From Bdellovibrio sp. SKB1291214 (GTDB lineage: Bacteria > Bdellovibrionota > Bdellovibrionia > Bdellovibrionales > Bdellovibrionaceae): 64,000 nucleotides of DNA. Every line of letters starts with the position of its first letter. Position 1 is the first letter of the stretch. The notes under the pieces are model-generated. The model worked only from the letters and a program-made list of their open reading frames with translations, was not told where the DNA came from and made no database searches. Shown here piece by piece: positions 7,386 through 24,824 of this stretch. The DNA is taken from assembly GCF_002209355.2 (NCBI RefSeq), contig NZ_CP106855.1, positions 3,224,001-3,288,000 of the forward strand. The letters run 5' to 3'. A program made the translations under genes and the position numbers.

Positions 7386-7892
7386 CTATTTTTCTTTTTC
7401 GTAAGCCTTGATCACTTCGTCTGTAAGGTCAGAGTCCGCAGTAGAGTACAAAACTCCTTGGTTATTTTCGAGAACCAAAGTGTAACCTTTGTCTTTCGCG
7501 ATTTTACCAATCACAGTTTTCATCTTAGTCAAAATCGGAGCAGTTAGTTCACGCTCTTTCTTTTGGATTTCCATTTGGCTTTTGCCAACGACATCACGAT
7601 ATTTGATCATTTCTTCTTGGAATTCAGCTTGTTTTTTACCAAGCGCTTCTTCAGAAAGAACTGATTTTTTCTTTTCAAGATCTTCACCCATCTTTTTCAG
7701 ATCAGCTTCTTTTTTCTCAAGATCTTTTTTCTTTTTGTTGAACTCGCCTTCAAGTTCAGTTTTTGCTTTCTTACCTGCAGAAGTCGCTTGGATAGCTTTC
7801 TGCATGTCTACGAAACCAACTTTGCTTCCTTCAGCCGCTTGCGCAGCTACTGCCATCATGAATACAGCTGCTGTAACAACCATTTTTCTCAT
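7386..7892 (-). CDS. skp: OmpH/Skp-family periplasmic chaperone
   Basis: Skp-type chaperones bind unfolded outer-membrane proteins in the periplasm and hand them to the BAM complex. The 168-aa protein has a Sec signal peptide (MRKMVVTAAVFMMAVAAQAAEG) and a long Lys/Glu-rich coiled-coil (about residues 45-120), the tentacle part of the family. The ribosome binding site GGAGG lies 9 bases before the ATG. It is 38 bases downstream of bamA, the usual pairing. Confidence 0.88.
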   Translation of the reverse strand: MRKMVVTAAVFMMAVAAQAAEGSKVGFVDMQKAIQATSAGKKAKTELEGEFNKKKKDLEKKEADLKKMGEDLEKKKSVLSEEALGKKQAEFQEEMIKYRDVVGKSQMEIQKKERELTAPILTKMKTVIGKIAKDKGYTLVLENNQGVLYSTADSDLTDEVIKAYEKEK

Positions 7893-7930
7893 CTAAAATT
7901 CCTCCCTAAATATTACGTTCAAAAATAAAA

Positions 7931-10333
7931 TTAGAAACTTGGACCAATCGAGAACTCAAACACCGAAGCATCGTGGTAGTTCGGATCGCGATTCAATGGG
8001 AATCCCCATTCGAATCTCAACACCCCAATCGGGGAATACCAACGAAGACCAAAACCGACGTCAGAGTAGAAACTTCCGCTTTCAAGAACATCGTCTGCGG
8101 CACCCGTGTCAAAGAATCCAGCTCCCATGATGCCAGCATCTTTAACCAAAGGGAACTGCAATTCAGTCCTAAACATTGCCTGTTGTTGACCACCGTAGAA
8201 ACGCCAAGCCAAGATTTCGGCTTGAGCCGGAGTCGCATTTGAACCCACGGGAGGTGCTTGTTGGGAATCGTTATAGATCTTCGTTGAGCGTTTCATTTTT
8301 CCCACACGGTAAGATCTGAAGCCACGCAAAGAATACGGTCCACCTAACAAGTACAACTCATTGAAAGGAACGACTTGGCCGTCGATACCATCAATACGTG
8401 CGTACTGGATATCATTTCTCCAAACCACATCCCAGAATAGGTTTTTAAAGTAATTAAATCTTGTACTTGCACGGTTGAACTTCAATTGGCCAAAGCCCGC
8501 ATATTCGTAAGATACGGATGCGAAGATACCTTTAGTTGGAGAGAAACGGTCATTACGCGTGTCGTACTCCAATGTTCCCGTCAAAGAAATAGTTTCGCCA
8601 GAAGCCGTACTCAAAGGAAAAAGATCGTAATCCGTGATGACATTTTTATTCGCATCTCTGCGTTCTTCGAGTTCTGACTTATCGTACTTCGCACGCAAAT
8701 ACCCGCGTGTGAATTCCGCCACAGGGTGACCCATACGGATCGCCATACCTGTGTGTTTTTCGTCATAGTCCGAACGACCGGTATTCATACTTTGATAAAC
8801 GTCGGCACCCAACAACCACTCAGTGTCGTTGAAGTATGGCTCTGTGAACGACAGGTTGTAGTAACTTCCTGTACCACTCAAGTTCACGTTCGCACCCAAG
8901 TTTTGACCTTTACCCAAGAAGTTCGTCTGTTGAACGGAACCTTGCAAAGTGAAACCTTGAGATGTTCCGTATCCAGCACCCAATTGGATTTGTCCTGTGT
9001 TACGCTCTTTGACCGCGATATCAACGTTCATCACATCGGTTCTTTCAGAATCGATCGAGGTTTTGAAATTGACGTCCTCAAAGAAACCAAGACGTTGGAT
9101 ACCTTCGAGCGACTGACGACGACGTGTTTCGTTGTAAAGCTCGCCCTCGCGCACTTTCAACTCACGACGAACAACCTTATCGCGTGTTTTCGTATTACCA
9201 ACCACATTGATTTTACCGAAGTAAACTTTTTGGCCTTTGTCGAATTCGAACACCAAGTCCATCTTGCGTTCTTTGTCATTCGCACGCGTACGAGGAATAA
9301 CGTTGGCATACGCGTAACCCAAGTCACCGTATTTAGCCGTTAACTCGCTGATGTCTTTTTGCAAAACTTCATAGGAGAAAACACCGTTTTCATCGATTTT
9401 AATGGCTTCATAAAGTTCAGATTTTGGGAACAGGATGTCGCCAGCGAAATCAACGTCCCCCACAGTATACTGCTCACCTTCCTCAACGTGGAATGTGATA
9501 TAGATGTTTTTCTTATCAGGAGTGACTGTAACTTGAGGACGATCGATCTTAGCTTGAACGTAACCTTGGTTATAGTACATGAAACGTACTATCTGGACGT
9601 CACGATCGAAGGCTTCTTGTTTGTATTGCCCAGAGCCTGACATCGCCGAAAAGAAACCACCCTCTTGAGTGATCATCTTGCTTTTCAGTTCAGTTTCAGT
9701 CAGGTGTTTTGCACCCAAGAACGTAATTTTACGAACTTTAACTTTGTCGTTTTCATGAACTTTGAAAACCAGGCGAACTGTTTCATCTTTCGTGATGTTT
9801 TGCACTTCTGCATCGACACGAGCCAAGAAGAAGCCTTTGTCTTCGTAAAGTTTTTGAACTTTTTCGACCGCTTCTTTAACTTTTGACATGTTCAAAAGTT
9901 GGTAAGCTTTAATGCCTGTCGCCTCAGCGATGTCTTCGGATTTGATCTCGCTGTTACCCTCGTACGTGATTTCAATGATCGAAGGCTTTTCCAAAACTTT
10001 GTAAGTCAGGACGGCTTCTTTACCAGTGACTTGGCGATCCACTTCGATATTGTTGAAATAGCCAAGTTTAAAAAGAGCTTCGACGTCTGCGCGAACAGCG
10101 GCACTGCTAAATTCAGAACCAGGTTTTGAAGTGATCTTTGTTAGAATCGCATCTTTTTCGATTTTACGGTTCCCCGCAACTTCAATGGATTTAACAATGA
10201 TGCCTGAAGGAGCATTAGAAGATTGAGAAACAGCAGCGGCCTTTTTTTTAGGAGCTGCAGTTTTCTTTTTAGGAGCCGCCATCGCAGTCGATGTGGCAGT
10301 AACTAATAACAAAGTACAAAGAAGCTTAATCAA
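7931..10333 (-). CDS. bamA: Outer membrane assembly factor BamA
   Basis: BamA (Omp85, 800 aa) inserts beta-barrel proteins into the outer membrane. After a signal peptide and a short Lys/Ala-rich segment, five POTRA-like repeats occupy about residues 45-420, followed by a barrel. The barrel carries the substrate-loop signature region around LLGGPYSLRGFRSYRVG, and the protein ends in GPSF with a terminal Phe as expected. The start is a TTG with GGAG nine bases upstream; I see no in-frame ATG nearby. It heads the skp and lpx gene run. Confidence 0.95.
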   Translation of the reverse strand: MIKLLCTLLLVTATSTAMAAPKKKTAAPKKKAAAVSQSSNAPSGIIVKSIEVAGNRKIEKDAILTKITSKPGSEFSSAAVRADVEALFKLGYFNNIEVDRQVTGKEAVLTYKVLEKPSIIEITYEGNSEIKSEDIAEATGIKAYQLLNMSKVKEAVEKVQKLYEDKGFFLARVDAEVQNITKDETVRLVFKVHENDKVKVRKITFLGAKHLTETELKSKMITQEGGFFSAMSGSGQYKQEAFDRDVQIVRFMYYNQGYVQAKIDRPQVTVTPDKKNIYITFHVEEGEQYTVGDVDFAGDILFPKSELYEAIKIDENGVFSYEVLQKDISELTAKYGDLGYAYANVIPRTRANDKERKMDLVFEFDKGQKVYFGKINVVGNTKTRDKVVRRELKVREGELYNETRRRQSLEGIQRLGFFEDVNFKTSIDSERTDVMNVDIAVKERNTGQIQLGAGYGTSQGFTLQGSVQQTNFLGKGQNLGANVNLSGTGSYYNLSFTEPYFNDTEWLLGADVYQSMNTGRSDYDEKHTGMAIRMGHPVAEFTRGYLRAKYDKSELEERRDANKNVITDYDLFPLSTASGETISLTGTLEYDTRNDRFSPTKGIFASVSYEYAGFGQLKFNRASTRFNYFKNLFWDVVWRNDIQYARIDGIDGQVVPFNELYLLGGPYSLRGFRSYRVGKMKRSTKIYNDSQQAPPVGSNATPAQAEILAWRFYGGQQQAMFRTELQFPLVKDAGIMGAGFFDTGAADDVLESGSFYSDVGFGLRWYSPIGVLRFEWGFPLNRDPNYHDASVFEFSIGPSF

Positions 10334-10655
10334 AGTTCAATTCTCCAAAAATCGAGAGGCCACCAGAGGCTCATTTTTCAAAAATCTCAAAGATTTCTCG
10401 ATAGTTACCATTTAAACTCGAAAATCGTAGCCCATGACCAAGGTCCAGTACACCAAAAAAGCCCACAGTGACGCGGCACAAGGCTCTGGATGCAGACCAT
10501 TATGCTCAAGAACTAAGCGGGTTCCGACACCTGGGGAAACGACAACCGCGCTGCCAGGAAGAGGTGTGTCATGATTCGCTCCACTTCACGTGTCATGATT
10601 CACACCTCATGATTCACACCCCTCTTCACCTGTCACATTCACAACTCGTCCCTGC
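10334..10655. other. Intergenic region with short repeats, upstream of bamA
   Basis: About 320 bases separate the bamA start from the end of the HNH gene (both minus strand). The half near bamA must carry its promoter, although I cannot pick one. The half near the HNH gene contains the short direct repeats described separately. I find no open frame with a ribosome binding site. Confidence 0.5.
10569..10620. repeat. 14-bp tandem repeat plus one partial copy
   Basis: TCATGATTCACACC occurs twice head-to-tail at 10593-10606 and 10607-10620. A diverged copy beginning TCATGATTC lies at 10569-10577. The core TCATGA is itself palindromic, so each unit could be a half or whole protein-binding site. 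The repeats lie just downstream of the HNH stop codon. Confidence 0.7.
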
Positions 10656-11714
10656 CTAATGCTTTAAAATTCCCAACCTCTGGGCCTCCGCCCGATTGTG
10701 CACCCCACACAAGATGCGCAAATTACTGAAGTCATTCGTTCCACCAAAAGCCAACGGAATTTTGTGATCAACCTGAAGTTGGAACTTACTTGTACATCTG
10801 CCGAAGTTGTCATGAACAAACTCACACTGCCCCATTGAGTTAGCGAGTAGCTTTCTGCGCGTCGTAATTTTAATGGCCCTTCGTGCGCCAGCGCCCTTGA
10901 CGATGACTTTGTCTGCGACCACTGTTTTCGCGTTGGCACCTTCTACTTTACCTACGCTTTCAACTGACGCTCCGGCCGTATTGGCTTCAACCTCAATCAC
11001 GACTTCATCATTAGTTTCGACTTCACCTACAGCACGAGTTTCACGAATGGAGTATTCAGCAATTTCATTTTTCTCAATAAAATCTGTGTTTCGGGATTTC
11101 CCCCTACGCTTTTGAATCTGCGTTTCAGCTAAATACGAAATCAGATCTGCCCAAGTAGGATTTGGTAATACGTGGGAGAGCAATTCCTTGGCGTGTTCCA
11201 GCCCTTCCATTTGCTCAGATGAAAATGTAATTTCCATACGAACAGATTCATCTTTTTGAGGCAGTATAACTTCGTGAGCTCGAATAGGTTGATTGAACTC
11301 CACAGCCAAAATCTTTTTAGTTTCAAAACTTGTTTTATTTTGAACAAGTGCGAGAACTTCCTCCGTTTTTTCAACCGAAATACAATTCCCTTGCTCCAGC
11401 TCTTTATTTAAACATTTCTGAACATGAGTCATCTGAGTCAGATTCAAATCCCCTGACTCAATAAGTTTATCCACTTGAGGAACTTTCTTTAGCAATCGCG
11501 CCGCCTGAACCCGGCGGTATGCCGCATCTTCAGAATAATTCAAATGCCCAGTCATATATTTAAACAAAGAAGTATACCCAAGCTCCAAATACAACCGGCG
11601 ACTTTCAACTTCAACCAAATGCCAAAGAATCAAATGAGTGATTTTTCGTTCAGTGCGCGCAAGCTTTTCAACACGATTTAAAATTTCAGCATTAGCAACT
11701 TGAGTAAGATCCAT
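10656..11714 (-). CDS. HNH endonuclease domain protein
   Basis: The 352-aa protein has an N-terminal helical region (about 1-200) resembling the part preceding HNH domains in DUF222-like nucleases, an Ala/Val/Glu-rich linker (about 225-275), and a C-terminal HNH domain: a CEF..C pair, the catalytic block QVDHKIPLAFGGTNDFSNL, and CGVHN. AGGAG lies five bases before the ATG. Proteins of this layout occur as stand-alone genes in several copies in Bdellovibrio genomes. There is no methylase or immunity partner next to it. A defence, mobile or prey-DNA-digesting role is all conceivable; none is shown here. Confidence 0.8.
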   Translation of the reverse strand: MDLTQVANAEILNRVEKLARTERKITHLILWHLVEVESRRLYLELGYTSLFKYMTGHLNYSEDAAYRRVQAARLLKKVPQVDKLIESGDLNLTQMTHVQKCLNKELEQGNCISVEKTEEVLALVQNKTSFETKKILAVEFNQPIRAHEVILPQKDESVRMEITFSSEQMEGLEHAKELLSHVLPNPTWADLISYLAETQIQKRRGKSRNTDFIEKNEIAEYSIRETRAVGEVETNDEVVIEVEANTAGASVESVGKVEGANAKTVVADKVIVKGAGARRAIKITTRRKLLANSMGQCEFVHDNFGRCTSKFQLQVDHKIPLAFGGTNDFSNLRILCGVHNRAEAQRLGILKH

Positions 11715-12009
11715 AACAACTCCTAACTTGAAGAAGTTGTATCACAGTATTTTAAAGTTCATTTTTAAGTAAAATCAGAAACAGAACCCATTCGCAAAAG
11801 CATCCATAATAGGATGTTAAACGCACCCATAAGCGCAACAAGAACAGGAAAACAATCCAGAAAGAAGGACCTCGATGAAGAAAAGAAATCCTTAAGAAAA
11901 AGCCCTAAAAGATCAAAAAACCACGTCAAACAATTTCAACATTACGTTTCAAACATGACACAGCTTTCCCTGGCAGAGCGGAAACAAAAAAAGTCCTGCC
12001 GAGCACAAA
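11715..12009. other. A-rich intergenic region
   Basis: This ~295-base gap lies upstream of the HNH gene and downstream of the secreted-protein gene (both minus strand). Near 11717 it carries the HNH ribosome binding site. The plus strand is very A-rich around 11860-11960, which gives a lysine-rich frame I do not regard as a gene. A short AAATCAG direct duplication is present just before 12020. I see no clear terminator hairpin. Confidence 0.4.
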
Positions 12010-13413
12010 TCAGAAATCAGAAATGCCCCACATATTTGTGAAGTTTTGAACCTTTTTGCCAGTCAAAGTAGATAGGCCATCACGACCGAATGGATCTTGA
12101 ACGGTCATTACGCCATTTTTGTAGTCAAACTTAATTGGCGGATTTTGATCTTGATCCACGTCTTGTTCACGTTGAGAAGCTACGAAGCCTGAACCTTTGA
12201 TGTTGTAAGCAACATTGAAGAAAGCTTTGTAAACCACGCCACCTTGCATAGACAAAGCTGCGATCAACATGTTTTCACGGGCAACTGCGACAGTGAATTT
12301 CCAAGAACGACCTTTTTTATCAGTCAGAGCGTATTCACCTTCTAAGTTGTACTCCTTAGCCAATACGGGGGCAGACTTTTGACCCAGCCACTTAGCCAAG
12401 TCGTCAGAGTCTTTAGCTGCACCTTTAGCACGAGACATTTCAACCAGGATTCTGGAAAGCTCGATGTATTTCGCAGAGTAAGTACCAGATGGGATGGTGT
12501 CTTGAGCCATCCATTGTTGAACCAAGCTTTGTGCATGACGCAATGACAGCGTATTAACTGCGCCCGTGAATTCTTCGGCAGAGATGCTTTCTTCGAAACG
12601 AACCATGCGAAGCAAAGTTTCGATCGTAGAATCACCAAGACCCGCAACCAACCAAGCTGGTGAACTGTCAGTCAATTTTGTGGTTTGTTTGTTCAAAAGA
12701 GCCAATTGGTTCAAATAGAAATGGCCATCCGTCTTATTCTTAGTGCCTAAAGCATAGATGCCTTGGTTTAGAACGTCGATATATTCAGACAGTGAAGAAG
12801 AGATCTTGATTTGTGAGATCCAGAATTGATTTTGTTCTGAAGTCATCGCGTTTTGCTTAAGCATGCTAACTGCGATGTCAGACTGAAGACGACGGAAGCC
12901 AGCAGGAACATAAGGAAGAGCGCTAGATTTTTGGTCTACAAGTGGCAGAATCGACTCGATGTTTTTAGAGATTGCTTGTAGAGCTGAGGGATCTTTAACT
13001 ACGTCGAGTTGGTATTCAACCACGGCAAGAAGACGTCCCAAAGCATCAGCATCCATCCAAGTCACATAGTACTGAACTTTTTCAGAAGAATCTTTAGACA
13101 AATCCAACCAACGCATACCATTTGAAACCATGTGCAAACCAAGTTGCTCGACGGCGTTCGGATAATATTGATTTAGGTTCGTTTTGTTAGCTTGCTTTTG
13201 AAGTTCGCCAAGCAACGCAAAGTATTTGTCGAAGGTAACTGCGTCTCTCATTTCTGAGATATTTAGATCAAGATCCATAATAACTTCGCGCAAAGCTGTA
13301 CGGTTTGTCGCTGCTTTCGTCAAAAGGTCTTGAGGTGCAGGCAAGTTAAGAGCTGCTACAGCAAGACTTGGTGCTATTACACAAAGCAATAGAAGGTGTT
13401 TAAGGTTTTTCAT
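12010..13413 (-). CDS. Secreted protein of unknown function, glycan-cluster member
   Basis: The 467-aa protein has a Sec signal peptide (about residues 1-20, ending VAALNL), then a long helical region (about 25-345) and a more beta-rich C-terminal part (about 350-467, from GEYALTDKKGRSWKF onward). I recognise no family. Its ATG overlaps the stop of the DUF2334 gene by one base (TAATG), so it is translated with it and probably belongs to the same envelope pathway. It is the last gene of the four-gene run. A periplasmic accessory or modifying factor is plausible but unproven. Confidence 0.75.
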   Translation of the reverse strand: MKNLKHLLLLCVIAPSLAVAALNLPAPQDLLTKAATNRTALREVIMDLDLNISEMRDAVTFDKYFALLGELQKQANKTNLNQYYPNAVEQLGLHMVSNGMRWLDLSKDSSEKVQYYVTWMDADALGRLLAVVEYQLDVVKDPSALQAISKNIESILPLVDQKSSALPYVPAGFRRLQSDIAVSMLKQNAMTSEQNQFWISQIKISSSLSEYIDVLNQGIYALGTKNKTDGHFYLNQLALLNKQTTKLTDSSPAWLVAGLGDSTIETLLRMVRFEESISAEEFTGAVNTLSLRHAQSLVQQWMAQDTIPSGTYSAKYIELSRILVEMSRAKGAAKDSDDLAKWLGQKSAPVLAKEYNLEGEYALTDKKGRSWKFTVAVARENMLIAALSMQGGVVYKAFFNVAYNIKGSGFVASQREQDVDQDQNPPIKFDYKNGVMTVQDPFGRDGLSTLTGKKVQNFTNMWGISDF

Positions 13414-15176
13414 TAACGGACATCCTTATAAATTGGTTCAGGTCTTTTTAATTTCGTATTCTTATTCATAAAATCGTTAATATCGATGAACTGATAGCCC
13501 ATCTTTTTAAGCTCTTGCAAAATGAAACGAAGTTCACTTGCATCACCTGGGTAAGAACCACGTCCGCCGTCTTCATAAGTCGTGAATAAAAACGGGTGAT
13601 AAAAGAAGGAAGCCCAGGCGTCGCGCAGAACTAAATTTCTTTTAGCGTCCGCCACAATGTCTTCCTTGCTGCGTGGGTTGGTTACGTGTTCATTCTGGAA
13701 TGGCTGCGAATTCCCCAAATTTTCGGGAATCAAACGTTGTCCGTGAACGTCACCAAAGATTTCGTAGGGGAAGTATTGACCGCTCCAGTTTTTTGAAGTC
13801 GTCGTGACCTTCAGGTTTTTAAAGAACTGATCGCGCAATTGCGAACCATTGGCGGCTTTGGATTCAAGCCACAGACCCGGATTTTGAGATGCGTTCAAAC
13901 CATCAGTTTTAAAATTATAATAGATCACGCGACCCACGTTCCAAGAAAACACATTGGCGAAAATGATGTTATCCAAAGTGGAAGCTTGGTAGTGGGGAGT
14001 AAGCCAGATCTTAGGGGTAACGCCAGCCTTTTGAAGGACAGAGAATCCATCTTCCAGCTTATCCATTACATAGCTAACGCTGTCTTCAGCGATAGGGCCA
14101 TTATTAGCGACATCAAAGAATTCAAAGTCATCACCCGAAGTTCCAGAGTGCGGATTGAACTGGTTTTTGTATTGGTGAGTAACCCCATGCCAGATGAATG
14201 TTGCACCTTGGGCTTTGGAATCCTGGATGTAATTCATGAATGCCGGAACGCGGTCCATGGACAACAACTGTTCGGTCGGATTATTTGTGTATTGGTACAA
14301 AGGATCATAGAAAATAGGGATCAAAGAGATGTTCAATGGAACTTGCTCTTCTTTAAGAACCTTGTTTGTGATGTACAACCAACTGAGCGGTACCAATGCA
14401 TGAACGTCTTCAATACGTAAGAATGCATATTTCTCATTATGGCGAGGTTTTGCATTTAAGATATCAAACAACACATCCGCGAAAACCAAGTAACGATCTG
14501 CTTCGTGCATAAAGCTAAATGGGACATCTGCAACGTAAAAGTGATTTCCAGCGCGCAAAATGTAGGGAGCTTCTTCACCAGTGACTGTTTGTACTGACTT
14601 AGCAAGAACCTGAGATTTTGTGGGAGTTACGGGTTTAAACAAGCTTTGTTCAAACTCTGCCAGGAATTGACCTTGTTGCGTTTTGCTAAATTCACCGTAT
14701 TTAAAGAACGTTTCACCTTTATAGATAATGTTCTTATAAAAGCTTGGACGGCCTTTGAAATCTAGTTTTTGACGATCTAAAACGCTGATTCTGTCATAGC
14801 TATATCCAAAGATATCATCGAATGCTTTCCCAAGTTTCCAAGTGCTGTAACCAAGCCATGCAACATTTGTTTTCGTATTTGCCCAGTCCTCTAAGAAATC
14901 AGCAGGGATGGCATTATCAAAGTACGAACCGATATAGATTGTAGCCGTACATTTATCGATGTCGCCTTTTTTGTACGATTCCACGTTTGAAACAACTTGT
15001 TGGAACTCTGGGAAATGCCCCATCAAGTTCTGCAAGAATGTCGCATACGTTTTACCCATCCAGTAACTAGCATCTGGAGAGCGATCGTAATAAATGTTCA
15101 CGCAAGGAGCGGCATTTGCAGCCATTCCTACGCTCATCACTAGCAATAAACTCATGATCGCAAAAACTTGTCTCAT
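13413..15176 (-). CDS. DUF2334 deacetylase-like secreted protein
   Basis: The 587-aa protein has a signal peptide (about residues 1-22) and a large region beginning near FLRIEDVHALVPLSWL that matches DUF2334, a branch of the NodB-like carbohydrate esterase fold. Supporting elements are the Asp of RIEDVHA, the HGVTHQY histidine pair, and a downstream WLTPHY segment. NodB-type enzymes remove acetyl groups from polysaccharides. Its ATG overlaps the synthase stop as ATGA, and the next gene overlaps its own stop, which makes coupling to the synthase strong. It could deacetylate or trim the polymer in the periplasm; whether it is catalytically active is not certain. Confidence 0.75.
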   Translation of the reverse strand: MRQVFAIMSLLLVMSVGMAANAAPCVNIYYDRSPDASYWMGKTYATFLQNLMGHFPEFQQVVSNVESYKKGDIDKCTATIYIGSYFDNAIPADFLEDWANTKTNVAWLGYSTWKLGKAFDDIFGYSYDRISVLDRQKLDFKGRPSFYKNIIYKGETFFKYGEFSKTQQGQFLAEFEQSLFKPVTPTKSQVLAKSVQTVTGEEAPYILRAGNHFYVADVPFSFMHEADRYLVFADVLFDILNAKPRHNEKYAFLRIEDVHALVPLSWLYITNKVLKEEQVPLNISLIPIFYDPLYQYTNNPTEQLLSMDRVPAFMNYIQDSKAQGATFIWHGVTHQYKNQFNPHSGTSGDDFEFFDVANNGPIAEDSVSYVMDKLEDGFSVLQKAGVTPKIWLTPHYQASTLDNIIFANVFSWNVGRVIYYNFKTDGLNASQNPGLWLESKAANGSQLRDQFFKNLKVTTTSKNWSGQYFPYEIFGDVHGQRLIPENLGNSQPFQNEHVTNPRSKEDIVADAKRNLVLRDAWASFFYHPFLFTTYEDGGRGSYPGDASELRFILQELKKMGYQFIDINDFMNKNTKLKRPEPIYKDVR

Positions 15177-16555
15177 GTACTTTGAACCTCAATCTCTTTT
15201 CCAAAGTTTTCAGGCATGCGGTGCTCAGTTTTAATCCAAGCTGGACGTTTTCCTGTTCTGATACTTTCCTTGTACTGACGATAAGCCTTTACCGTCGCAC
15301 CTATATTAATAATATTTGCGAGAAGCCACCGCACTGGCACCAAGGCGATATGAACACGTGCATTGGTGCGAGACACAGCTTTCATTCTTTGAATCACTCG
15401 TACTGACATGTTCAAAAGATTTAGGAATAACAACGCCTGAAACAAGTTGGTTTGCAAGATCTCGGGCAAGTGGCCCGTGGCGCGAGCAGATGCAAACATA
15501 ACCAGTAGCAGACCAGAGAACACGATGAGCACACTGTTCAAAGGGCCACGGCGGTCTCTCCACATAAAGTATTTATCAATCCTGGTTCCGTTCCAAGAAA
15601 GGTTGTCCATGCCTTGAAAGGCGATTCCTAAAGTCCAACGAGATTTTTGCCTCATAGACGCGTTCATCATGTGAGGAAAGTATTCGCGAGTCGCGATGAA
15701 CTCCTTTTTGCCGTTTTCCTTTTCGTACTGAACGCAAGCAAACTTGGACTTAAAGCCCAATTGCTTAGTCATCATGCCTAAGTGATAGTCTTCCGTCAGA
15801 GTGTCTTCTTTAAGGAACTGACCCTCTTGTGCATCTTGCAGTTTCAACATCAAGTTTTTTCCGATACATGTGCCAACCCCAGCAGAGGGGATTGCGGCTC
15901 CCATACGCTCCCGCACCAAAAGATCTTTGGTGTGAGATTCAGAAAATTCATCAATGTAAACACCACCAACCAATGAGGCCGCTGGAACGTCGAATGAAAA
16001 TACCGGGATTTGTACGAAATCGGCATTTGCAGAATAATAATTCATCAAGCTTAAAGAATGCGGATGAAGCACATCTTCTGAATCTTGCATCAGGAATAAA
16101 TCAACTTTTCTACCCATGGAAATTTCAGAGTCGATGATTTGACGAGCCATCTCGTTTAGCATCTGACCTTTTGAAGTCGGCCCTAGTTGAGTATTAACGA
16201 TGACAACAACCTTGTGTGGGAAAAGGTCTTCAAGTTTTTTTGCTGCTTCCCAGGTCGCGGTATCGTTCGGATAAACACCTAAGAAGAATGTGTAGTTCGA
16301 ATATTGTAGGCCGCGCAAGTTACCACGAATCATCGGCGCGATAACTTCAGCTTCTTTCCAGTTCGCGATCAGAATAGCGAAATGCTTTTCAGGAACTTGT
16401 TTGATTTTAGTGATGAAATCAGAAGTTACCACTTTTGGTTTCATTTTGAAAACCAACGCATAAATATCGATGAATAAATCGTCCAAGGTAAATACTAATG
16501 CGCCGACCACAACTGTAAATGCCAGCAGGATAAAGAGAGCATCAAATAAAGGCAT
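15173..16555 (-). CDS. NfrB-like membrane glycosyltransferase (GT2, processive type)
   Basis: The 460-aa inner-membrane enzyme opens with a hydrophobic segment running into LDDLFIDI, a hallmark of the NfrB (phage N4 adsorption protein B) family. The GT2 core has the acidic metal/sugar motif QDSED, the catalytic TED (LTEDYHLG), and QxxRW as QKSRW, which marks processive synthases. Three further membrane segments lie around residues 335-440, followed by the family tail RTGKRPAWIKTEH. E. coli NfrB is about 745 aa and has a C-terminal c-di-GMP-binding MshEN domain; here that domain is absent, so regulation must differ. The gene overlaps both neighbours. Confidence 0.82.
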   Translation of the reverse strand: MPLFDALFILLAFTVVVGALVFTLDDLFIDIYALVFKMKPKVVTSDFITKIKQVPEKHFAILIANWKEAEVIAPMIRGNLRGLQYSNYTFFLGVYPNDTATWEAAKKLEDLFPHKVVVIVNTQLGPTSKGQMLNEMARQIIDSEISMGRKVDLFLMQDSEDVLHPHSLSLMNYYSANADFVQIPVFSFDVPAASLVGGVYIDEFSESHTKDLLVRERMGAAIPSAGVGTCIGKNLMLKLQDAQEGQFLKEDTLTEDYHLGMMTKQLGFKSKFACVQYEKENGKKEFIATREYFPHMMNASMRQKSRWTLGIAFQGMDNLSWNGTRIDKYFMWRDRRGPLNSVLIVFSGLLLVMFASARATGHLPEILQTNLFQALLFLNLLNMSVRVIQRMKAVSRTNARVHIALVPVRWLLANIINIGATVKAYRQYKESIRTGKRPAWIKTEHRMPENFGKEIEVQST

Positions 16556-17292
16556 TAGAATGACCCTCCGAAATACAGAAGGGCCTCGTTATGACTTCTT
16601 TCGTCTTTCACGAAAGATTCATACACGAGCAAACCAACACTCCATTTTTCCCAGGCACCTAAAAAGCGCACGCCGGCCCGAGCCTGTTCAGTGTCTCGTC
16701 CCAAATCAGGTGTTGGACTGCGACGAACATAAAGCTCGACGTAAGGATCGATCATTATATTTGAATCAATTTGAAAGCGCAGACCTTGTTTAATCCAACC
16801 GGTGGAAACAGGGTCATGGTGATAAGAAGGCATCAAAACACCTTCAGCATAAAACTCAGTAAACATGCTTACTGAACTCACGGGATAAATCCACATATTT
16901 CCAAGGTATAAACCCCAGCGACTGCGATCCTCAGTGCGAGCTTCAGCCAACAGATGCAGGTTCTTCCAGATTTTGAAACGGAAACCAGCTTCAGCTAAAA
17001 GGTATTCTTTGTTGTAAAGGGCATCTTGATCAGAAGAAGTTTTATCTTGGCGCTGAACCACAGCTCCAAAGTACACGGCCGTAAGACCGTTCTTAAAGAA
17101 AACGTAACGAAGTTGCGTATCCGTCAGTAAACCATACTGAGGAACGTAATTCGTTTCCGAATAAATTTCTCCACTTGAAGTGAAGGATGCTTGAGCAGAT
17201 GTCGTGACAAATGTTGTGAAAATAAGTGCGCTCAGAGCAGAATATCGCAGAACACGTACTAAGAGTTCGATAAACCACCGCCGAATTGACAA
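16555..17292 (-). CDS. Outer-membrane beta-barrel, NfrA C-terminal-domain-like
   Basis: The 245-aa protein has a signal peptide (about residues 1-34, ending SAQA) followed entirely by alternating amphipathic strands with aromatic girdles and a terminal Phe (ALLYFGGSF), as in outer-membrane barrels. Its layout resembles the barrel part of NfrA, the outer-membrane partner of NfrB, without NfrA's long TPR region. The start is a TTG with a weak site; I find no better in-frame start. Its stop overlaps the synthase ATG by one base. It is the likely export pore for the polymer, by analogy. Confidence 0.68.
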   Translation of the reverse strand: MSIRRWFIELLVRVLRYSALSALIFTTFVTTSAQASFTSSGEIYSETNYVPQYGLLTDTQLRYVFFKNGLTAVYFGAVVQRQDKTSSDQDALYNKEYLLAEAGFRFKIWKNLHLLAEARTEDRSRWGLYLGNMWIYPVSSVSMFTEFYAEGVLMPSYHHDPVSTGWIKQGLRFQIDSNIMIDPYVELYVRRSPTPDLGRDTEQARAGVRFLGAWEKWSVGLLVYESFVKDERSHNEALLYFGGSF

Positions 17293-17380
17293 ATTCTTGA
17301 TTACATTAGTTGTATAACGTAGCCAAAATTTGATTACAACGGCGCTGCAGAAATTTCATGGAAATAAATGGAACGTAAGA

Positions 17381-17406
17381 AAACCAAACTCTCTAAAGTT
17401 TGGTTT
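17381..17406 (-). terminator. Hairpin over the wecB stop codon
   Basis: Ten-bp arms AAACCAAACT and AGTTTGGTTT flank a 6-base loop. The 3' coding end and TAG of wecB lie inside it. On the minus strand the stem is followed by a short run of T, then C. It could end part of wecB transcription before the barrel-synthase genes. Confidence 0.5.
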
Positions 17407-18553
17407 CTAGAATATTTAAAATTTTTTCGGATGCTTGGCCGTCACCAAACGGGTTTTTAGCTTGGGACATGCGATTATAGATTTCAGGTGTGTCTAAAAC
17501 CTCACTAGCCATTTTGTAAAATTTACCCTGTTCCAATGGGATTAATTTGGAAGTCCCAGCGGCGATGGCCTCGGGGCGCTCAGTCTTTTCACGGGCTACA
17601 AGGATCGGTTTTCCCAGAGAAGGAGCTTCCTCCTGAACACCGCCAGAGTCAGTAATGATCATATGAGCCTTATCCATCAAATAGATGAATGGAACATAAT
17701 CGACAGGCTCACACAGCCATATTTTATTGCCAGCTTTTGGTGCTTCGCCTTTATCAATCCACTGAGCGTTGTCGCCAAAGATTTTTTGAGCAGAAGCCCG
17801 CACCTGGGGATTCATGTGTAGAGGAATAAGAAGCTCAATATCTTCGCGACGAGAAAGCTCGAGTAAGCCCTTCATCACTTCTTCCATCGGTCGGCCGAAA
17901 GATTCACGACGATGTACTGTTACTAGAATCATTTTGCGGTTTGGATTTAGGAACGAATATTTGCTGGCTATTTCTGATCTTAAAGAAGGCGTTGATTCGA
18001 TCTTCTTTTTCACTTCAAACAAAGCATCAATACCAGTGTTGCCGGTCACAAAAACGTCTTCCGCGGGATAGTGCTCGCGCAAAAGATTATCGCGAGCAGG
18101 TTCCGTCGGGGCTAGGTGAACTTTAGAGACTAAGGCTGTACCTTTACGATTAAACTCCTCAGGGAATGGGGAATAGATGTCACCAGAGCGCAGACCGGCT
18201 TCTATGTGTACGACAGATACTTTATTATAAAATGCAACTAAGCTTCCGATGAAACCACTCGTTGTATCGCCTTGAACAACGACAGCGTCGATTTTATTTT
18301 CTAAAAGAATTTTATTGAGGCCAGCCATAACACCCATTGAGATGTCGATAAGTGATTGTCCCGGGCGCATAAGATCCAAATCAAAATCAGGCTTGATACC
18401 AAAAAAATCAAACAAAGGACGAATCATTTCGCGATGTTGCCCAGTAGAGCATACAAGAACTTTAAAACGAGGATCTTGCTTTGCTTTTAAAATAACCGGA
18501 GCACATTTAATAGTTTCTGGGCGAGTGCCGAATACGAAGAGGAGTGTTTTCAT
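17393..18553 (-). CDS. wecB: UDP-N-acetylglucosamine 2-epimerase (non-hydrolysing)
   Basis: WecB interconverts UDP-GlcNAc and UDP-ManNAc in the cytoplasm. The 386-aa length is typical. Conserved pieces are GTRPE at the N terminus, QGDTTSG, HIEAGLRSGD, TVHRRES and TDSGGVQEEAP, which cover the known active-site residues. No UDP-ManNAc dehydrogenase (wecC) or other ECA gene is nearby. In E. coli, WecB alone among ECA enzymes is needed for the Nfr-dependent glycan, so its position 100 bases upstream of an NfrB-like synthase supports a ManNAc donor role. Confidence 0.92.
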   Translation of the reverse strand: MKTLLFVFGTRPETIKCAPVILKAKQDPRFKVLVCSTGQHREMIRPLFDFFGIKPDFDLDLMRPGQSLIDISMGVMAGLNKILLENKIDAVVVQGDTTSGFIGSLVAFYNKVSVVHIEAGLRSGDIYSPFPEEFNRKGTALVSKVHLAPTEPARDNLLREHYPAEDVFVTGNTGIDALFEVKKKIESTPSLRSEIASKYSFLNPNRKMILVTVHRRESFGRPMEEVMKGLLELSRREDIELLIPLHMNPQVRASAQKIFGDNAQWIDKGEAPKAGNKIWLCEPVDYVPFIYLMDKAHMIITDSGGVQEEAPSLGKPILVAREKTERPEAIAAGTSKLIPLEQGKFYKMASEVLDTPEIYNRMSQAKNPFGDGQASEKILNILETKL

Positions 18554-21527: not shown

Positions 21528-21548
21528 GCTGGAGTTTGATCCAGCCTA
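21528..21548 (-). terminator. Hairpin at the end of the MMPL-LolA gene
   Basis: Inverted arms AGGCTGGA and TCCAGCCT flank six bases and overlap the stop codon. There is no T-run after it on the minus strand, so it may stabilise the mRNA end rather than terminate. Confidence 0.4.
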
Positions 21549-24500
21549 ATCGTCGGAAAGCGCTTTTGGAGAGAATTTGGAGGACTTTAGGTTCTGATTA
21601 ATTTTGATGTCAGAGAGGCTGATATCGGTGCCCCGTTTGTTTTGGACGTTTCTAATTTTGATAGTTCCCGCGCGAAACTTATTACCAGGAAGTTTTTTGT
21701 AGTCACCAAATTCGATCGTCTTAACTAACTTAGATTGTTTGTCGAAGCATTCAGATTTAATTGGCAGAAATTCCTTCGCCGAGACGTAGCTGACGATTTT
21801 AGAATAATTAGGAGAGCTCGCGGATACGTCACTTTCTACTAACAAATATTTGCCACCTTTAACTTCGACTTCTTTTTTTACTGTTGTGGACGCCGATGAG
21901 TCGCGGTTGAAGTCGAAATCTTCGGCACTGAGCTCTGAGCCTAAAATCCCACCTTTACTGCTTTCGCCAGTCAGACGACGAACCTGTTTCGATGAAGGAA
22001 GATAGATCCATTTTTCTTCTTTATCGTTTTTAAGTGTTGCAAGTAAGGCCGTACCTTTCAGATCGGCGGGTTTTAGCATTCGCACCATCATTGAGTGATC
22101 TTTTTTAGAAGGACTCATTCGCCAAATTTGCATCTGACGTTCTTTGGATGATCCATCGGCCTCTATGATCTTCATCTCGGCTACGAAGGTTTCATCCTTT
22201 GTACTGAAACGAGAACTCATCTCTTGTCCCAATTTTTCAGCAGTGGGAAGTCCTTGTGCCCACAGTTTCAAAGGTGCACTGATGATTACGAACGCTAGGA
22301 TAATAGATGCCGCTGTTGCCATAACTTTCTCCTTCTTCCAACGTAAAGGGCCAAGCAGCCATGGGCAACTTTTCAACATCGTTGGTAAAAGAATCAAATC
22401 CCCTACCAGACCAGCCAACATCGACAAAAGCATATAGAAACCAAAAATTCGATTCATCGCAAAGTAGGAGGCCATGAACACAGAAAATCCTGCAAGCAAT
22501 GTCAGACTTGAGATCAGGCAGGGATTGCCCTCAAGCCACAAAGCTTTTTCGATATCAAGTTTTCCGCTCTTCGTGTTCTTTTGCATAGCGCGCAGTCGTG
22601 CCAACAAATACACCGTGTTGTTAAACGCCAAGCCCAGTGCAATCGAAAAAATAATGGCAACACTTGGTTTAATGGGAGTCTCCGAAATTGCCAAGAATCC
22701 CAATAAAGCTGCAGGCGGGACTAAGTTTGGAATACAAGCGACAAGTGACCAGCGAAGTGATTTAAAAACAAATACCAAGACGACAACAATTGCCGCCATG
22801 GATTGCCAGAATCCAAAGATCAACTCGTGGGAAAGGTCATTGTTCAGTGCATGAATTGTCGAACCCATGCCAGTCACTTGAATTTTCATTTCTGGAAATG
22901 ATTTTTCAGTCTTAGAACGAAGCTCTTGAACAAGCTCATGCAATTTATTTCCCGGTAAATCTTGCGTACGCACCGATAAGCGCGTTTTAGAGCTGTCGGC
23001 GTTCAGGAAATTTTTAAGAGGACTTTCATTCGAAAGAGAATACAGAAAGAATATCTCTGCCGTGGAGTTACGACTAGCGGGCAAGCGAGAATGATGAAAG
23101 CTTGCTGCCGCGACTAAATCAGGAAGGCTAACGACGCTTCCTACACCCTCAGTATTGCGAATATCACTGGAAAGTGCATCCAATCGTGCTATTAGTTTTG
23201 GGTCATTCCAGGCATCTTGGCCGCCGTCGATTTCGATATCTACTGGAATCATCCCGCCAAGCTCTTTGTCGATGGTTTCAGTGGATAAACGGACTTGATG
23301 ATTTTGTGGAAGGTCATCAAATAGACGTGCTGACCAAGATAGGGAGTGGCCTTTGAATGCAAGCCCTAAAGATACAATGATGATGCCAATCGTCCAAATA
23401 CCGCTGCGACGGAAAAGGTAAAGTCCCCAACGAGCTTTGGCCCAAGCCCACTCACGAGCTGTGGGTCCTTTAAGAAATAAGAGAAGCGGGAAAAGGAGAA
23501 TCGTAGTCGTGATCCAGCCCATAACAATAGAAATGGCCGCTGTGACTCCGTATTCGCGAATCAACGGTACATTTGTTGTTAATAGACTTAAGAAGCCAAT
23601 CATGGTTGTTGTGGATGCGATAAGATTTGGTTTAAAGATCGCGCGGAGCGTAGTCATGACGAGCTCTTCGTGAGACACTTCAGGCGAAGCTTTTTTTTCC
23701 TCGGCATAGCGAAGAAGCGTATGAATACACAACGATACCACGTCCACGGTCGTAAGGATTGGGATGGTCGTGGAAAGTATAGAAAACGGTAGGCCGACGA
23801 GTGCCATCACCGCAACCACTAAAATATTGGCGCAGATGATGACCACAAAAGATATCAACAGCGGAGAAAAATTTGAAAAGATCAAAGCAAGCACTATAAA
23901 GCACGCGACGAATCCCAGAATGACAAAGTTTCTAAGCTCAGTGCTTAATAGTTTTGCGACATCCGTTTGAACGGCTGGTGTCCCTCCTAATTGAACATTC
24001 GCAAATGGCAAAGAAGCTGAAGACGTAACCTGCAGATTTTCACGCAAGCTTGTTAGTTCATGAGTGTTCAGACGATTGATGCTGACGATGATCGATGCTG
24101 TTTTACCGTCTTTGGAAATCAATGTCGGAGCAATCAAAGGATTTGCCGAAGTTTCTGCGGCCCATCTTTCAATAGGAATACTCTTTAATAAGGGACCGAC
24201 GCTTAAGCCCTCATCACTAGAAACAGCTCCTTGCACTGTTGCTAAGGATAAAGCCGTACGAACTCCTGGATAGTTCGCAACAAGCTCCGTCAATTGCTTT
24301 AAATCATCGATTTTGGATTGATTGAACCAATCACCGTTTCCTTCATTTACGCGGGCTGTGATTATAAATGGCTGAACCTCGGAAAGTTGAAAGGTCTGTC
24401 GACTTTTTTCATCCAACTTAAGAAGTGCATTATCTTTTGGCAGAAACTGCTTAAGACTGTACTGAGTTGTAAGCTTCGGAAGCGCCAGCAAACTGAATAG

Positions 24501-24575
24501 GGTTAAAGTAATCACGCCAATCAATGAGGTGATGGCAAGAGCTTTTCTGGAAATTTTTAAAGGCATTCGCAACAT
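21546..24575 (-). CDS. MMPL/RND transporter fused to a LolA-like lipoprotein-sorting domain
   Basis: The 1009-aa protein joins two modules that are usually separate genes. Residues ~1-745 are an MMPL/RND exporter: a first membrane helix near 10-30, a periplasmic loop, helices ~215-380, a second loop, and helices ~570-740. Residues ~752-1009 match the outer-membrane lipoprotein-sorting (COG2834, LolA/LolB fold) family, with KEEKWIYLPSSKQVRRL and GSELSAEDF. The join runs through a signal-peptide-like helix (MATAASIILAFVIISAP). I chose the ATG at 24575 (AAGGA eight bases upstream) over the TTG at 24596. Such transporter/LolA-like pairs are often found with an outer-membrane barrel, as here at 26336. 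Confidence 0.85.
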   Translation of the reverse strand: MLRMPLKISRKALAITSLIGVITLTLFSLLALPKLTTQYSLKQFLPKDNALLKLDEKSRQTFQLSEVQPFIITARVNEGNGDWFNQSKIDDLKQLTELVANYPGVRTALSLATVQGAVSSDEGLSVGPLLKSIPIERWAAETSANPLIAPTLISKDGKTASIIVSINRLNTHELTSLRENLQVTSSASLPFANVQLGGTPAVQTDVAKLLSTELRNFVILGFVACFIVLALIFSNFSPLLISFVVIICANILVVAVMALVGLPFSILSTTIPILTTVDVVSLCIHTLLRYAEEKKASPEVSHEELVMTTLRAIFKPNLIASTTTMIGFLSLLTTNVPLIREYGVTAAISIVMGWITTTILLFPLLLFLKGPTAREWAWAKARWGLYLFRRSGIWTIGIIIVSLGLAFKGHSLSWSARLFDDLPQNHQVRLSTETIDKELGGMIPVDIEIDGGQDAWNDPKLIARLDALSSDIRNTEGVGSVVSLPDLVAAASFHHSRLPASRNSTAEIFFLYSLSNESPLKNFLNADSSKTRLSVRTQDLPGNKLHELVQELRSKTEKSFPEMKIQVTGMGSTIHALNNDLSHELIFGFWQSMAAIVVVLVFVFKSLRWSLVACIPNLVPPAALLGFLAISETPIKPSVAIIFSIALGLAFNNTVYLLARLRAMQKNTKSGKLDIEKALWLEGNPCLISSLTLLAGFSVFMASYFAMNRIFGFYMLLSMLAGLVGDLILLPTMLKSCPWLLGPLRWKKEKVMATAASIILAFVIISAPLKLWAQGLPTAEKLGQEMSSRFSTKDETFVAEMKIIEADGSSKERQMQIWRMSPSKKDHSMMVRMLKPADLKGTALLATLKNDKEEKWIYLPSSKQVRRLTGESSKGGILGSELSAEDFDFNRDSSASTTVKKEVEVKGGKYLLVESDVSASSPNYSKIVSYVSAKEFLPIKSECFDKQSKLVKTIEFGDYKKLPGNKFRAGTIKIRNVQNKRGTDISLSDIKINQNLKSSKFSPKALSDD
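22322..22336 (-). promoter_or_regulatory. Internal ribosome binding site and start for the LolA-like part
   Basis: Inside the fusion gene, AAGGAG lies six bases before an in-frame ATG at 22322. That ATG begins a signal-peptide-like sequence (MATAASIILAFVIISAP...WAQG). Initiation here would give a separate 258-aa periplasmic LolA-like protein from the same frame. Confidence 0.5.
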
Positions 24576-24824
24576 TCGCTGAGTCCTTATGATCAAGGGT
24601 TACGTCAGATAGGAAATTATCGGACATATTTTTTCACTCTAAAATGTGCTGGAATTCGTATAGTGACTGAACAGGTTGATAGTAAAACACGTGAAGTTCA
24701 GAATTCAGAACAAAAAGTAAAAAAGTTCATCGATGTTGGACCTTTTGACTGAATGAAAAATGAGAATACATCCGATAGAAAAAAGTTTCTTTAGATTTTA
24801 CAAGAACCACCGTAACGTGAATCC

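Follow-up and report, generated by a model that had tools for sequence, protein, structure and literature searches.

The window, the whole stretch of 64,000 nucleotides analysed here, corresponds to positions 3224001-3288000 of the 3.68 Mb single-contig genome of Bdellovibrio sp. SKB1291214 (G000). The locus comprises five open reading frames and a junction in the record:

17393-18553, minus strand: wecB, non-hydrolysing UDP-GlcNAc 2-epimerase of 386 aa (TIGR00236 profile)
16555-17292, minus strand: outer-membrane beta-barrel of 245 aa with a signal peptide (AlphaFold2), candidate glycan exit pore
15173-16555, minus strand: short NfrB-type GT2 synthase of 460 aa, with a GT domain and transmembrane helices (profiles, identity, tree)
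13413-15176, minus strand: predicted periplasmic DUF2334 de-N-acetylase of 587 aa (Pfam, fold, motifs)
12010-13413, minus strand: secreted protein with no Pfam family, 467 aa as recorded, truncated gene (ortholog comparison)
12010-12023, no strand: junction in the record; the sequence to its left does not follow the operon in relatives

Successive genes overlap by 1 base (13413), 4 bases (15173-15176), and 1 base (16555), and a gap of 100 bases separates wecB from the barrel gene. This arrangement had been described in an earlier reading of the DNA made without database searches (the sequence-only reading), and the positions of the five minus-strand open reading frames, their overlaps, and the gap were all confirmed on the sequence. 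Comparison of the genes with those of the nearest ortholog locus (L054) resulted in low dN/dS values of 0.02-0.08, indicating strong purifying selection on all of them. Promoter and terminator counts were at the level expected by chance. A hairpin is present at the wecB stop (17355-17415; a perfect 12-pair stem followed by a T-rich stretch, z -3.4), which could place wecB in a transcription unit of its own, but nothing firm can be drawn from this since the hairpin is not conserved in L054. Elsewhere in the window, an open reading frame of 1016 aa (21546-24596), also conserved in L054, looks by eye like the fusion of an RND/MMPL transporter with a LolA-like domain for sorting outer-membrane lipoproteins.

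The gene for the secreted protein at 12010-13413 is real but is not complete as first described. Its orthologs are ~570 aa long, and the recorded open reading frame covers residues 1 to ~463 of a 572-residue ortholog before stopping a few codons beyond the junction at ~12023; this stop codon is a by-product of the junction. The match between the DNA of L054, where the full-length secreted protein is encoded at 11291-13009, and the window extends as far down as 12024, beyond which it resumes at G000:C1:1875505 downwards. The missing 3' part of the gene and the next gene of the operon, which encodes a GH113 protein, lie in the same record at G000:C1:1873976-1875504, 1.36 Mb away. In this displaced piece, the last 85 residues of the secreted protein are 99% identical to L054, and the GH113 gene is 92% identical. 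The proposal of a self-contained four-gene operon could therefore not be maintained, as the sixth gene of the relatives' operon is missing from the window. A Ku gene, which is one gene in G016, is cut as well, with its first part running off the record end at 3681188 and its last part starting at ~1875505. At both cut genes 70-135 bases are missing, and dN/dS is low on either side of the break (all pieces 0.02-0.08).

The record can be divided into blocks A (1-1875504), B (1875505-3236023), and C (3236024-3681188), and continuity of the secreted-protein and Ku genes requires the block order A-C-B. A true chromosomal rearrangement, having broken the operon and left a system that is being lost or works without its accessory periplasmic proteins, would account for a gene cut at 12023 with its 3' part so far away. 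We consider this improbable, because its third breakpoint would be the arbitrary end of the record, inside the second cut gene, where a real rearrangement is not expected to break, and because the bases missing at both cut genes, together with purifying selection on all pieces, argue for a misjoin. It is probable that the record assembles three contigs in an incorrect order, and the operon is likely to be intact in the living strain. With such a misjoin, the first 12 kb of the window would not be the true neighbours of the operon. An HNH endonuclease gene (10656-11714) is located there, at the end of the neighbouring block beside the junction.

The wecB product scores 421 bits against TIGR00236 (NCBIfam cut-off 210) and is not of the NeuC type. 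It is the single wecB match in G000 and is linked to the GT2 gene. No WecG/TagA (PF03808) and no member of the UDP-glucose/GDP-mannose dehydrogenase family that includes WecC (PF00984) was detected in G000, whereas both profiles gave matches in control genomes. With one wecB, no WecG/TagA, and no UDP-sugar dehydrogenase, the GT2 enzymes are the only identified candidate users of UDP-ManNAc, which would leave the nucleotide sugar with no evident outlet other than these synthases.

The GT2 protein matches the PRK14716 models with 364 and 343 bits and the NfrB model (NF008411) with 308 bits, the NfrB match spanning only residues 11-474 of 723, i.e. the GT part. It is 33% identical to residues 17-482 of Escherichia coli NfrB over 472 columns. 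In a tree of 45 GT2 proteins, a very long branch with full support lies between the family with NfrB and the pair BcsA and PgaC; the place of E. coli NfrB itself is unsure, as it has a long branch and cannot be put inside the family. Profiles, alignment, and tree thus all place the enzyme with NfrB, as the sequence-only reading had proposed, and its candidacy as a cellulose or PNAG synthase was rejected, there being no real match to either BcsA or PgaC. The DxD-like, TED, and QxxRW motifs noted earlier are present as D158-x-E-D161, residues 254-256, and residues 303-307, respectively, and are invariant in 44/44 relatives. A profile search found no MshEN c-di-GMP domain in the 460-aa protein, whereas the same search finds MshEN in E. 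coli NfrB, and c-di-GMP control of the NfrB kind is therefore not supported. Sequence searches of the PDB with the GT2 protein, the deacetylase, and the barrel returned no relatives.

The AlphaFold2 model of the barrel (pLDDT 89) has 12 strands within residues 40-244. Its best fold matches, with Z values of 11-12, are KdgM, VhGalP, OmpG, FapF, and autotransporter barrels, which would indicate a barrel of about this size rather than a function. The barrel gene directly precedes the GT2 gene in most relatives, and this position together with the fold suggests that the protein may form an exit pore. The suggestion that it corresponds to NfrA was not borne out: a search of 144 genomes with the NfrA_C profile (PF13283) gave no hit above its cut-off among members of the class and none at all for G000, hhalign to NfrA gave the barrel a probability of 0.3%, and the protein has no TPR part. 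The barrel is thus not detectably NfrA, although a remote kinship of fold may remain. The secreted protein was also considered as a detached TPR part of NfrA and was rejected, with an hhalign probability of 0.1%.

The deacetylase-like protein scores 133 bits against the Pfam DUF2334 family (cut-off 26). Its predicted structure (pLDDT 79) comprises an N-terminal ThuA/amidotransferase-like domain (~23-242) and a NodB fold (~245-577), the latter matching CE4 enzymes with Z values of 14-16.5 over 186-236 residues and bearing out the earlier assignment. Superposition on Agd3 (CE18) gave a Z value of 13.8 over 415 residues with an rmsd of 7.3. Glu-256, Asp-257, His-330, and His-334 are conserved in 15/15 homologs and His-527 in 14/15; the catalytic-base position is occupied by Glu and not Asp. 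The roles of these residues as base, metal triad, and catalytic His are assigned by analogy with PelA and Agd3 (PMC12022489, PMC7229062). The GH113 protein of the operon, whose gene lies outside the window, gave 68 and 63 bits against a Pfam cut-off of 27, and its catalytic glutamates Glu-181 and Glu-336 are present in 15/15. DUF4434 was not found in the operon, and a reading of the GH113 protein as a YbcH/DUF4434 equivalent gained no support, with an hhalign probability of 1.1% to YbcH. Two more GH113 genes are present in G000 (L097:7082-8377 and L098:6212-7468), 35-39% identical to that of the operon and not located beside a GT2 gene.

A strict member of the Nfr/NGR group would have a c-di-GMP-activated NfrB, export through NfrA, and a role as phage receptor. 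The homology of the GT domain to NfrB, the linked WecB, and a Comamonadaceae cluster combining NfrB, NfrA, DUF4434, WecB, and DUF2334 are in keeping with such membership, but the lack of an MshEN domain, of any NfrA_C or TPR match, and of DUF4434 makes it very unlikely for this operon.

In relatives, the gene order is wecB (co-directional or divergent), outer-membrane protein, GT2, DUF2334, secreted protein, and GH113. This order recurs in L054, L055, L056, L066, and L078, and in L070 without wecB. Within a neighbourhood of ~8 kb on each side of GT2, less at contig ends, wecB was found in 21/27 class genomes with an unbroken GT2 gene; the linkage noted from the sequence is therefore real and conserved. 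The six genomes in which the two genes are unlinked (G023, G045, G046, G054, G074, and G087) all have wecB elsewhere, and in G074 it adjoins the secreted-protein gene on another contig. Within the genus, 12/12 genomes with intact GT2 and 0/12 others possess a WecB that belongs to a single subclade (identity of at least 70%; Fisher 7e-7, not corrected for kinship), G022 with its broken GT2 remnant being counted as negative. GH113 is found in 10/12 GT2-positive genomes versus 0/12 others, again among related genomes with no correction for kinship, and the two GT2-positive genomes that lack it are drafts in 320-550 contigs.

G000 contains a second NfrB-type cluster (L053, G000:C1:2984500-3002500, at 7755-10674) with a barrel, a GT2 protein (60% identical), and the N-terminal domain of the deacetylase alone. 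It lacks the catalytic deacetylase domain and a wecB of its own and lies beside nucleotide-sugar genes, indicating that deacetylation is not universal. A degraded cluster is seen in G022 (L082, G022:C1:3174500-3192500), where GT2 is broken by a stop, the deacetylase is shortened to its N-terminal part, and the secreted protein looks intact; this genome has no matching wecB. About half of the congeners covered by the search, G004 among them, have no GT2 gene, which argues against a general need for the system in predation. A surface or matrix glycan would be the safe functional statement, with attachment, which the sequence-only reading had linked to prey, protection from phages or other predators, and biofilm formation as possible roles.

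Outside the group, a Comamonadaceae plasmid (CP099603.1) carries, in a row, genes for WecB, an NfrB-type GT2 without MshEN, DUF2334, a TPR/NfrA_C protein, and DUF4434. A Streptomyces plasmid has wecB, a GT2 of another branch, DUF2334, and GH113 together (wecB-GT2/DUF2334-GH113). GT2-WecB-DUF2334 occurs in Beijerinckiaceae, and GT2 followed by WecB in Alphaproteobacteria and an acidobacterial MAG, one of them with DUF2334.

Taken together, and with the break in the window read as an assembly misjoin, the locus probably specifies the synthase-dependent secretion of a surface or extracellular glycan that contains ManNAc and is partly de-N-acetylated. WecB would convert UDP-GlcNAc to UDP-ManNAc, as is the function of its family, and the inner-membrane NfrB-type GT2 would, like its family, polymerise UDP-ManNAc and move the chain across the membrane. 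In the periplasm, the DUF2334 enzyme is predicted from its fold and motifs to strip N-acetyl groups, giving a cationic chain, and the GH113 protein, with its catalytic glutamates in place, is predicted to trim chains. The 12-strand barrel would let the polymer out, and the secreted protein would probably act as a scaffold, the weakest step of the scheme. This reading is favoured because the gene order recurs and the WecB subclade and GH113 track GT2 in the genus, because no other user of UDP-ManNAc was identified in G000, and because similar sets recur independently in Comamonadaceae, Streptomyces, and Beijerinckiaceae. E. coli genetics, which tie NfrB to WecB alone among the ECA enzymes (PMC8669469, PMC8669472), argue in the same direction. 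The deacetylase-like tail fibres of N4-type phages (PMC8594841) are in keeping with an NfrB product that is N-acetylated. The location of wecB away from GT2 in G023, G045, G046, and G054 counts against it, as do the paralogous L053 cluster with its incomplete deacetylase, the lack of detectable NfrA homology in the barrel, the hairpin at the wecB stop, and the kinship of the genomes behind the co-occurrence counts. In the literature, we found no biochemical proof of ManNAc for any NfrB product. Neither papers nor published mutant data on the Bdellovibrio genes were found.

The same machinery could make a polymer that is mixed or not based on ManNAc, such as a backbone of GlcNAc or hexose that includes some ManNAc, with WecB serving only a minor branch or another pathway too. 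The breadth of the GH113 and DUF2334 families, the still unproven substrate specificity of NfrB-type GT2 enzymes, and the occurrence of wecB elsewhere in some genomes speak for it, but one WecB subclade strictly accompanies GT2 and no other known UDP-ManNAc user was found in G000, which makes this explanation rather unlikely. Within the preferred reading of a ManNAc-containing glycan, we tentatively suggest that Gram-negative predators may secrete a homopolymer of ManNAc that is partly de-N-acetylated. This polymannosamine would be cationic like chitosan but of manno configuration, and the GH113 enzyme would be dedicated to it. To our knowledge, no Gram-negative bacterium has so far yielded a polymannosamine of this kind. 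The chemistry of the NfrB product has yet to be worked out, and the Bdellovibrio lineage would be a cleaner source than E. coli, where ECA competes, since wecB, synthase, deacetylase, and hydrolase lie together and no other UDP-ManNAc user was found. The set of WecB, GT2, DUF2334, and a TIM-barrel glycosidase recurs in several phyla with varied synthases and exporters; it would define a widespread class of mannosamine polysaccharides and give a substrate to DUF2334 and to the GH113 branch of the operon.

The Pga (PNAG) and Pel systems follow the same logic of a GT2 synthase, a periplasmic deacetylase and glycosidase, and an outer-membrane barrel, but the GT2 of the present operon is not close to PgaC in the tree, and the deacetylase, hydrolase, and barrel belong to other families. 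The Pss exopolysaccharide of Listeria is a secreted, GT2-made polymer reported to have a ManNAc backbone, from a Gram-positive organism with another GT2 branch and other accessory genes. The E. coli Nfr system (NfrB, NfrA, and YbcH with WecB; product NGR) has in common with the Bdellovibrio set an NfrB-type GT2, dependence on or linkage to WecB, an outer-membrane barrel, and a periplasmic TIM-barrel-type protein. In contrast to E. coli, the Bdellovibrio GT2 has no MshEN domain, the barrel has no TPR part and is not detectably NfrA, GH113 replaces DUF4434, and a DUF2334 deacetylase and a secreted protein are added; judged by the sequences of its GT2 and barrel, the operon is not the Nfr system proper. 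The Comamonadaceae cluster shares wecB, the short NfrB-type GT2 without MshEN, and a full-length DUF2334 homolog (30% identity over 96%), and has a true NfrA-like export protein and DUF4434 where Bdellovibrio has the small barrel and GH113. The NGR polysaccharide has been postulated to be ManNAc-based (PMC8669472). The linkage of epimerase and synthase had been thought undescribed, but a 2021 paper (PMC8669469) had already described wecB beside nfrB as well as NfrB homologs from deltaproteobacteria, and a comparable Clostridioides difficile operon was published in 2020 (PMC7710045). By description, the C. difficile locus differs in its Gram-positive host, its BcsB-like partner, its lack of an outer-membrane barrel, and a GT2 nearest to a mannosyltransferase (PMC7710045). 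It shares with the Bdellovibrio operon WecB, a GT2 polymerase, GH113, and a deacetylase that is distantly homologous to CE4, and its proposed product is a partially deacetylated, ManNAc-rich polysaccharide (PMC7710045).
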